DNA from: Oscillospiraceae bacterium
GTDB taxonomy: Bacteria; Bacillota; Clostridia; Oscillospirales; CAG-272
Direction: 5' to 3'
DNA length: 32,313 bases
NCBI GenBank assembly: GCA_015063585.1
Contig: SVTW01000024.1
Location: forward strand, 1-32,313
This document shows positions 4,576 to 21,564 of this stretch, in pieces. Each line of letters begins with the position of its first letter. The stretch's first letter is position 1. The notes below the pieces were generated by a model, which was not told the DNA's origin, did no database searches, and saw only the letters and a list, made by a program, of their open reading frames with translations. The translations under genes were made by a program, and so were the position numbers.

Positions 4576-6242
4576 TTAAAAGCTCCTTTTTTCTCGGTTG
4601 CGGGTGAAACACCGAGCAGCCGTAATTTCTTTAAAATTTTACACAAACGATCGCCCTGCGGAAGCATTTGGATCAAAGATTCTTTCACAGCTCCCATTGC
4701 AAGAGCAAATATAAGATAGAAGATCATTGCCAACAAAATGGCAGAAACCGTTAGCATTGCGTGCTTACCGATATGCGTGGATAAGATCCAATAGACCGCA
4801 TAAGAGACGCCGATGGATAGTGTTGCCGCCGCAAGAGGCCTCCAAAAAAGCTGCCATAGGCCCGACACGTGACAAAGCGTTGCGGCAAACAATAGATTGA
4901 CACACACAACCGTCACGTTGCAAAGGAATGTGCTGATCGGTGCGCCGAGTAAGGCAATGCGCGGATTTCCAATGAGCAGGTATGCCGTCAAGATCTTGAT
5001 TGCCGCGCCCGCAAGCATCGAAACAATGGGACGTTTTACGGCTTGATAGGCATGCAGGACCGAATTGGTGGCGGTGATCATACAAGAAAAGAATACCGAC
5101 ATGCCCAATGCGGAGAGCAACGGGGCGGCAATTTCCACGGCGGACGGAGTTCCTCCGAACAGCAGTCTCAAAATCGGTTCGGCATATGCCGCCACGCCAA
5201 GAGAGGCAGGAAGCGCGAATAAAGCCGTGAGCTGATAGGAATTGCGGATCATATCCTCCTGACGCGCACGGTCGCCCGAGGCAATTGCCGCGGAAAGCAT
5301 GGGAACCAGAGGTAAGGCGATGGAATTGACCAACGTTGGCAGAAGCCCATAAACCGAAAGCGCAAGCGTAGTATAGCTCCCGTATGCCTCATTTGCAAGG
5401 ACCTCGCTGTACCCGATCGATTGCAATCGGCGCAAGATCATCGTCATATCAACAAGCTTTGTCATGCTGACAAGCGAAGCGCCGAGCGTCATGGGAATTG
5501 CGAGCTTGGCAAGCCGCGACCAGATCCGAGCGGCGGACGGCAGCCTTGGCTCCGCCAATGCCGTGTCCTCTTCCTCCCCGGGGGAAAAGCGTATTTTTTC
5601 AAGCACAAGATAAAGCAACGAAAGTGCTGTTCCAAGGGTGAGTCCCATGCCCGCAAAAGCAGCGACGGTTGGGGTATCGTATCCGCGCCCCAGCGCGTAT
5701 CGCGCCAGCAAAACGCCAAAAACGATCTTTCCCAATGACTCAATAACCTGTGAGACCGCGGTGGGAAGCATGCGCTGATAGCCTTGAAAATAACCGCGCA
5801 AAGCCGATGAAACGCAAATGAAGAAAACCGTTGGCGAGATGGCGAGAATGGATCCCAACGCATGCTCGCTTTGAATCATTTGACAAAAGCGGCGGGAAAA
5901 CAGCAGCATCACCGCGGTTCCGAGCATACCAACCCCGATAAAGATCCGTAAAGAATGCCGCCAGATACAGCGTACCTCTCCCCCGTTTCCGCGCGCCCGT
6001 GCTGAGGCGATCATTACCGAGAGCGCAACAGGCAGACCCGCGGTGGAGATCACACAAAACAAGGCATAGATCTCATATGCCGAATTGAAATAGCCCATGC
6101 CAACCGATCCGAGATAGGTAAGCATGGGTATTTTATATATCAAGCCGATGATCTTTACAAGCACGGTAGACAGCGATAGCAACAGAACGCCCGATAAAAA
6201 GGTCTTCCCTGTATTTTCACGCAATCGCTCCGCCATGCTCAC
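4572..6242 (-). CDS. SpoVB/MurJ-like polysaccharide biosynthesis flippase (MATE/MOP superfamily)
   Basis: Multi-TM protein with LSTVLVKIIGLIYKIPMLTYLGSVGMGYFNSAYEIY at the N-terminus; ATGA overlap with mazG (yabM-yabN order). Confidence 0.88.
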   Translation of the reverse strand: MSMAERLRENTGKTFLSGVLLLSLSTVLVKIIGLIYKIPMLTYLGSVGMGYFNSAYEIYALFCVISTAGLPVALSVMIASARARGNGGEVRCIWRHSLRIFIGVGMLGTAVMLLFSRRFCQMIQSEHALGSILAISPTVFFICVSSALRGYFQGYQRMLPTAVSQVIESLGKIVFGVLLARYALGRGYDTPTVAAFAGMGLTLGTALSLLYLVLEKIRFSPGEEEDTALAEPRLPSAARIWSRLAKLAIPMTLGASLVSMTKLVDMTMILRRLQSIGYSEVLANEAYGSYTTLALSVYGLLPTLVNSIALPLVPMLSAAIASGDRARQEDMIRNSYQLTALFALPASLGVAAYAEPILRLLFGGTPSAVEIAAPLLSALGMSVFFSCMITATNSVLHAYQAVKRPIVSMLAGAAIKILTAYLLIGNPRIALLGAPISTFLCNVTVVCVNLLFAATLCHVSGLWQLFWRPLAAATLSIGVSYAVYWILSTHIGKHAMLTVSAILLAMIFYLIFALAMGAVKESLIQMLPQGDRLCKILKKLRLLGVSPATEKKGAFK

Positions 6243-20909: not shown

Positions 20910-20992
20910 TTCCGCTACTCCTTTATTTTTTCTAATTATAGCATATTTTCTGACAAAAAGCAAGAAAAATGTTAAATTGAACCAACGGTTGA

Positions 20993-21021
20993 TTGACAAA
21001 AACAAAAAATTCTGTTATACT
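20993..21021 (+). promoter_or_regulatory. Strong sigma-70/A-type promoter
   Basis: TTGACA (20993-20998), 17 nt, TATACT (21016-21021). Confidence 0.88.
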
Positions 21022-21094
21022 ATGTTTGTCGGTGTTTTCGGGAAGTACAACCGAGAATGCACGATCAAATTTTTTAAGAAAGGAGGCGGTCTGA

Positions 21095-21157
21095 ATGTCT
21101 AAGAAAAACAATAACGGATGTTTTACCCTCGCCTCAAAGGTGGTTCTCGCTCGATAA
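21095..21157 (+). CDS. 20-aa ORF (MSKKNNNGCFTLASKVVLAR), candidate leader peptide or small protein
   Basis: ATG at 21095, TAA at 21155-21157, strong AAAGGAGG Shine-Dalgarno upstream, canonical promoter about 75 nt upstream. Too short for the supplied ORF track. Confidence 0.7.
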   Translation: MSKKNNNGCFTLASKVVLAR

Positions 21158-21202
21158 TACGAGCATCCTTCCATTTGTTGGCAGGTTAATCCCGTGTTTT
21201 TC

Positions 21203-21239
21203 GGGTGCATCCGTACATTGTTGCGGATGCACCTTTTTT
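21203..21239 (+). terminator. Intrinsic terminator between the 20-aa ORF and the XRE gene
   Basis: GGTGCATCCG (21204-21213) / CGGATGCACC (21224-21233), then a T-run (21234-21239). Confidence 0.92.
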
Positions 21240-21276
21240 ATCCCATACTTCAGCCGAAAAAACAAGGAGATTATAC

Positions 21277-21495
21277 GTGTTAAATATGGAAAGCTTTGGC
21301 CGCAGACTTGCTTATCTGCGCCATCAACAAAATTTGACGCAACGAACGATTGCTGAACACTGTTGCGTCTCGGTTCAAGCCGTTTCCAAATGGGAACGCG
21401 GGCAATCCTGCCCCGATATTCTGATTCTTGATGAGCTTGCCTCGGTTCTCGGTGTTGAGGTGAAGGATCTCTTTTTGACAGATGACGCAGGATAA
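21277..21495 (+). CDS. Small XRE-family helix-turn-helix regulator
   Basis: FGRRLAYLRHQQNLTQRTIAEHCCVSVQAVSKWERGQSCPDILILDELASVLGVEVKDLF. AAGGAG then GTG at 21277 (alternative ATG 21286); no sensor domain. Confidence 0.9.
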   Translation: MLNMESFGRRLAYLRHQQNLTQRTIAEHCCVSVQAVSKWERGQSCPDILILDELASVLGVEVKDLFLTDDAG

Positions 21496-21496
21496 G

Positions 21497-21534
21497 AAAA
21501 AAAGAGGATCTCGTAGAGTAGATTCTCTTTTTTT
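21497..21534 (+). terminator. Terminator after the XRE gene
   Basis: AAAAAAGAGGATCT / AGATTCTCTTTTTT stem with one G-T(U) pair, followed by T-rich DNA. Confidence 0.88.
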
Positions 21535-21535
21535 C

Positions 21536-21564
21536 TTGACAATTTTGAGAAAATGTGTTATATT
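21536..21564 (+). promoter_or_regulatory. Promoter for the esterase lipoprotein gene
   Basis: TTGACA (21536-21541), 17 nt, TATATT (21559-21564). Confidence 0.85.

Follow-up and report, generated by a model that had tools for sequence, protein, structure and literature searches.

The window, by which we mean the whole stretch of 32,313 nucleotides analysed here (Oscillospiraceae bacterium, contig SVTW01000024.1), carries at 21277-21495 a gene with a GTG start for an XRE/Cro-type regulator of 72 aa, the product of which matches Pfam HTH_3 (PF01381) with an E value of 1.7e-14 and 54 bits, against a curated cut-off of 23. This gene and all the features that accompany it lie on the plus strand. 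Upstream of its Shine-Dalgarno sequence, read at 21264-21270 (AAGGAGA, hereafter SD2), we found a sigma-70 promoter TTGACA-17-TATACT (20993-21021; 11 of 12 positions match in the scan, and it is aligned in all homologues), a 5' hairpin, P1 (21028-21065, from folding and covariation), with a 9-nt loop GAAGUACAA at 21042-21050, an ORF of 20 codons (ATG 21095 to TAA 21157, MSKKNNNGCFTLASKVVLAR) behind the Shine-Dalgarno sequence GAAAGGAGGCGG (SD1, GGAGGCG, 21082-21088), and an intrinsic terminator (21203-21239, -22.2 kcal/mol) made of a 13-pair stem (21203-21234) and a T-run. A second terminator, an inverted repeat AAGAAAAAAAGAG...CTCTTTTTTTCTT recognised by direct reading, follows the XRE gene at 21495-21536, and further 3' lies a SASA-domain lipoprotein gene, which has a promoter of its own (21536-21564). 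The promoter scan gave no promoter between the first terminator and the XRE gene (21240-21277). Reading of the sequence therefore agrees, coordinate by coordinate, with an earlier note on this DNA, which had described a canonical promoter, a 20-codon ORF with a strong ribosome binding site, an intrinsic terminator, an XRE gene with no visible promoter and a second terminator. A sole promoter, a short ORF with its Shine-Dalgarno sequence and an intrinsic terminator make up the layout of a leader-ORF transcription attenuator. RNA folding and covariance analysis across homologous loci, as suggested in the same note, revealed a leader of 213 nt that is more stable than all of 200 shuffled sequences (z = -4.39), a covarying P1 and a set of orthologous leaders. 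Rfam covariance models gave no match to the leader near any gathering score, the mir-1252-like matches being due to low-complexity sequence and chance.

Using a protein search of 60 related genomes, we collected 12 clear XRE orthologues besides that of the window, separated by a score gap from general XRE proteins; all homologue sequences are contigs of metagenome-assembled genomes. The same leader precedes 11 of the 12 (L003-L007 and L009-L014), which makes twelve with the window, and the remaining orthologue (L008) keeps the operator-like promoter described below and has no leader. Within the genus, 12 of 35 genomes carry the leader, each with an orthologous XRE gene, and such a recurrence of the layout is far beyond chance. 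One of them, L009 (G001:C112), has about 270 extra bases between the leader terminator and the XRE gene, including an inverted-repeat element of the CCTCCCTTTACACAAGGGAGG type. A conserved membrane protein of 226-228 aa is encoded 3' of the XRE gene in L004-L007 and L010-L013, and is absent there in the window. A first covariance model (R1) recovered exactly the twelve genus leaders plus chance-level matches, and its weak matches L061-L064, L066 and L078 are chance; with a second model (R2), spanning the operator to the CGCCTC block of the ORF, the matches above about 1e-6 were mostly chance or plain XRE promoters. Together, R1 and R2 extended the set to further genera of this family and, with L060, to one leader in another family; small XRE genes that have the motif QAVSKWERG follow nearly all of these. 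The leader precedes an ABC exporter in L144, L145 and L155, and another, non-XRE gene in L065 and L088. A search of a class-wide sample gave one borderline match and no clear case, and none was found in viral contigs or in phage and plasmid collections. Among the 15 matches of a wider pattern scan, 11 were this leader and four (L044, L046, L047, L055) were judged to be chance on reading. On its minus strand, at about 4716-4773, the L044 match has a look-alike hairpin, CATATCGGGAGGTACAACGATATG, followed by GAAAGGAGG; the RNA to which they belong, some 300 nt long and provided with a terminator, may be structured and has no Rfam match.

The promoter itself is a constant feature of the wider leader family, in the operator-like form AACCANNNGTTNATTGACA; in the window the operator-like element AACCAACGGTTGATTGACA (20980-20998) overlaps the -35 box, and it is kept in nearly all leaders. 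An exact match to ACCANNNGTTNATTGAC is confined in the genus to the XRE leaders, to three promoters that serve membrane or ABC transporter genes and to one chance site. These three promoters (L092, L096, L099) have no leader and stand before membrane protein and ABC transporter genes; they form a possible regulon of the XRE protein. The element is probably the site of autoregulation by the XRE protein, its putative binder, and together with its copies at the three transporter and membrane-protein promoters it suggests autorepression and a small regulon. In L065 and L088 an inverted repeat of 13-14 bp flanks the -35 box, between the operator and the -10 box. The leaders before ABC exporters (L144, L145, L150, L155) have the same operator, a strong Shine-Dalgarno sequence, an ORF ending CTCGCCTCCGAGG and a terminator, and the near identity of this type across three genera suggests transfer.

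The 5' hairpin covaries strongly, with two-sided changes at 7 of the 10 pairs of the P1 helix; when P1 and P2 are taken together, 8 pairs show such changes and none of 500 shuffles reached the covariation score. Its loop GAAGUACAA is shared without change by G320 and 11 of the 12 genus members, and the 13-mer GGGAAGTACAACC of P1 is confined in the genus to leader loci, plus one match in a coding sequence; L011 has two tandem copies of this hairpin (G012:C87:29655-29695). Group C leaders have at the same place a 5' hairpin of different sequence, of GNRA type, the helix statistics of which we left out of the evidence, given gaps in the alignment. The loop core of the window and that of L079-L081 (AGCGUACGA) have the palindrome GUAC in common, and such loops could form a kissing contact between two leaders. 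In three leaders of one genus (L085, L087, L090) the P1 loop and the last part of the ORF are complementary, AAGACC or UAGACC facing GGUCUU or GGUCUA; the change on one side is compensated on the other, and the two may be in contact. The covariation of P1 also disposes of a short pairing put forward in the earlier note, ATGCAC (21057-21062) with GTGCAT (21205-21210): the letters are present, and the pairing was rejected since ATGCAC belongs to the 3' arm of P1 and is not conserved in the orthologues.

The main competing pairing of that note, between CGGATG in the ORF (21115-21120) and CATCCG in the 5' arm of the terminator (21208-21213), proved to be real. With A21114-U21214 and a G-U it comprises 8 pairs (-12.1 kcal/mol), joining the ORF segment ACGGATGT (21114-21121) to CATCCGT (21208-21214), as seen by complementarity, folding and comparison. 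It recurs in L003, L009, L060, L079-L081 and L088, five pairs are kept in L004, and in group C the GGAU of the ORF pairs with a CACATCCG element. Over 23 leaders, no part of the ORF has a stronger complement in the linker than GGAU (mean z -1.39), and the best partner of GGAU lies on an attenuator element, meaning the 5' arm of the main hairpin or the complement of the XRE Shine-Dalgarno sequence, in 19 of 23 leaders against 8.8 expected from other ORF segments (P 1.5e-6, with related leaders counted as independent and no tree correction). The earlier note had made its reading depend on conservation of this pairing, which these counts bear out. Two-sided changes are found at 3 of 8 pairs, in a set that was picked by complementarity and again with no tree correction, and 86.5% of cells are paired compared with 17-46% when slid. 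The ORF segment ATCGGATGT of L065 and L088 is perfectly complementary to ACATCCGAT in the terminator.

For folding we took a ribosome footprint of 15 nt either side of the P site and structures free of pseudoknots. In a window transcript ending after the 5' arm, the pairing has a predicted probability of 1.00, which stays at 1.00 with a ribosome on codons 0-1 and falls to 0.00 with one on codons 3-12, as anticipated by the earlier proposal that a ribosome on the ORF would cover the segment. Truncated transcripts of L003 and L079-L081 give 0.86-0.99, and in L004, L009 and L060 the pairing appears mainly with the ribosome on codons 0-2. The 5' arm of the window is paired to the ORF at 0.68 against 0.16 for shuffled ORFs (p 0.05-0.08; p 0.00-0.33 in homologues), and in the better cases real ORFs reach 0.50-0.85 against 0.06-0.24 for shuffled ones. 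Folding and comparison thus agree on a conserved antiterminator that involves the ORF and excludes the attenuator, with a strength that is uneven among leaders, being strong in L002, L003, L009 and L079-L081 and weaker in the others, L005, L006 and L007 being weak members of the genus. At equilibrium the terminator (-22 kcal/mol) outcompetes the ORF pairing (-12) and no switch is predicted at SD2 of the window, so control in the window must be kinetic.

The element that is opened or closed differs among leaders. True terminators are preserved in 8 of the 12 genus leaders, and a T-run is missing from the hairpin of the other four (L005, L012, L013, L014) and of some group C leaders; in these four orthologues the output must therefore be translational. 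Complements of the XRE Shine-Dalgarno sequence are found in the linker of each group and differ in sequence: the genus has AUCUCC/GGAGAU, group C either GGCACAUCC/GGAGAUGUGCC or AUCCAUC/GAUGGAU, and g39 GCUCUUUGC/GCAAGGAGU (z -3.26 for the segment). Over 23 leaders the XRE Shine-Dalgarno segments have a mean z of -1.1 against the linker, and segments inside the XRE gene are not complementary to it. Complementarity to SD2 is strong in L010, L011 and g39 and weak in the window, where TAATCCC (21187-21193), opposite GGAGATTA of the XRE gene, is a weak candidate anti-SD2 with a z of only -0.5, the signal being stronger in L010, L011 and group C. In group C one CACAUCC strand is complementary to both the GGAUG of the ORF and SD2 GGAGAUGUG, and in L005, L006, L010 and L014 SD2 is predicted to open mainly with the ribosome on codons 0-2. 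The missing T-runs, the anti-SD2 complements, the group C strand and the predicted opening of SD2 would also suit a purely translational switch, in which AUCUCC, GGCACAUCC or GCUCUUUGC hides the XRE Shine-Dalgarno sequence until a long rod forms between the linker and the distal half of the ORF, and in which terminators are lineage-specific additions. We consider it unlikely, though the best placed of the alternatives, as the terminators are true ones in two thirds of the genus leaders and as the best partner of the ORF in the window and in g28 is the terminator arm, the anti-SD2 signal being weak there. One ORF core seems to drive either termination or SD hiding, depending on the leader, with the terminator as the main candidate for the output in the window. 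The earlier claim that leader translation controls the regulator keeps the support of a conserved ORF complement on the attenuator and of a predicted ribosome effect; its description as a transcription attenuator alone does not hold.

What is conserved in the ORF is its RNA. All 12 genus members have an ORF of exactly 20 codons and two related groups one of 19, with its start, its strong Shine-Dalgarno sequence and its stop preserved, and SD1 AAAGGAGGCG and the GGAU at codons 7-9 are constant across the wider family. Overlooked in the earlier note, the ORF also contains an almost invariant complement of its own Shine-Dalgarno sequence, the anti-SD1 CGCCTC (21130-21135), with 98.6% of SD1/anti-SD1 cells paired over 23 leaders. 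Some groups translate this block as Ala-Ser, others as Arg-Leu, and in L060 and L141 the reading frame changes and the RNA blocks stay. A stop-codon hairpin, P3 (GCTCG-ATAATA-CGAGC, 21149-21164 in the window, from comparison), is found in the 12 genus members and in L060, with a stop codon that lies within the loop or borders it and a stem that varies in sequence and preserves its pairing. For codons 7-15 the variability at the three codon positions is 0.14, 0.24 and 0.17, so that third positions are no freer than first and second; together with the frame changes, this places the constraint on the RNA and not on a constant peptide. Peptide conservation beyond the needs of the RNA, as in arrest-peptide attenuators of the erm or tnaC type, was not found in the leaders, nor was a run of codons for one amino acid, as in attenuators of the trp or his type, and the sequences do not indicate a peptide-specific stall. 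The same data weigh on the idea of a leader that serves as a small protein gene, or as a dual-function small RNA with its end at the terminator, the XRE gene being reached by read-through that the ORF does not regulate. A strong promoter, a strong Shine-Dalgarno sequence, a fixed ORF length, a terminator and a P1 loop whose strict conservation could reflect binding of a partner in trans would fit such a gene, but codon positions and shifting frames speak against it, as do the four orthologues without a terminator and the placement of the leader nearly always before an XRE gene, and we hold it to be quite improbable. Least probable of all is a constitutive leader, in which the mRNA owes its stability to 5' hairpin and ORF and the terminator does no more than reduce the amount of a weakly expressed repressor: the different sequence of the hairpin that takes the place of P1 in group C (GNRA type) and the lack of an equilibrium switch in the window agree with it, but it leaves the invariant anti-SD1 and the GGAU partner on attenuator elements unexplained.

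We therefore favour, as the probable reading, a cis-acting leader-ORF attenuator of an XRE regulator, which probably represses its own promoter. From the parts, their conservation and complementarities and the predicted effect of ribosome position, we infer how read-through or translation would change, in which direction and on what signal, as well as the autorepression. RNA polymerase would start at about 21028 and transcribe the 5' hairpin and then the 20-codon ORF. In the growing transcript the GGAU of the ORF would hold the attenuator open by pairing with the terminator's 5' arm or, in sister lineages, with the strand by which the XRE Shine-Dalgarno sequence is hidden, so that the XRE gene would be transcribed and translated. 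A ribosome elongating through codons 3-12 would cover GGAU, the attenuator would close and the XRE gene would be off; with a ribosome held at the first codons, or with none, GGAU would be free and the gene on. The CGCCTC further along the ORF could hide SD1 and would set how often ribosomes enter. Impaired translation of the leader would thereby raise expression of the regulator. In the ABC-exporter type (L144, L145, L155) operator, Shine-Dalgarno sequence, ORF and terminator are shared, and the GGAU/terminator logic is only a candidate there.

Control by a leader ORF is of a known kind. Translational attenuators of the erm type combine a leader peptide ORF, alternative pairing and a hidden downstream Shine-Dalgarno sequence with a drug-specific arrest peptide; the first three are found here too, but RNA blocks rather than the peptide are conserved, across frames. 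The proposed logic, with elongating ribosomes closing the attenuator and start-held or absent ribosomes leaving it open, is that of the vmlR (PMC9226507) and toiL (PMC12121999) leaders. The vmlR leader of Bacillus subtilis, before the gene of an ABCF resistance factor, has a short ORF in its first stem-loop, a terminator and an SD-hiding hairpin before the main gene, and an antiterminator that is freed by a ribosome held at the ORF start, codon identity mattering little (PMC9226507). By contrast with its 3 codons, the ORFs here have 16-20, with an anti-SD inside the ORF, an operator at the promoter and an XRE target, and we found no sequence relationship between the two leaders. At toiL/topAI of E. 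coli, a leader that controls a toxin-antitoxin pair, ribosome occupancy of the ORF alters pairing around the Shine-Dalgarno sequence of the next gene and stalling at the start codon suffices; termination there is Rho-dependent and inside topAI (PMC12121999), whereas intrinsic terminators and an XRE gene are found here. The uORF candidate motif uORFC-6-1 upstream of hflX, from comparative RNA searches, likewise combines conserved leader structure with a short ORF and is taken to be a stalled-ribosome sensor, but differs in sequence, genes and taxa, and the passages of that report on uORFs and regulators do not mention a motif before XRE genes (PMC8632094). In the open literature we found no report of a leader ORF that controls an XRE gene in this way, and no earlier description of the family.

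More tentatively, these leaders may form an undescribed family of RNA switches, in which occupancy of the ORF, gated by an internal anti-SD, drives two interchangeable outputs (a terminator or a hidden Shine-Dalgarno sequence) and which would sense translation stress in general and act on an autoregulated XRE repressor. If this is true, the state of the ribosome would set a transcription factor circuit, the XRE operator being found also before ABC exporter and membrane-protein genes. Leader-ORF attenuators are known mostly for resistance and biosynthesis genes, and the case of an XRE repressor would link the state of translation to a transcription circuit. The analysis names the exact bases to mutate. 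With terminator and SD outputs that swap around a constant ORF core, the family offers a natural case for the study of attenuator evolution, and it is present, without an Rfam entry, in many uncultured gut Clostridia.
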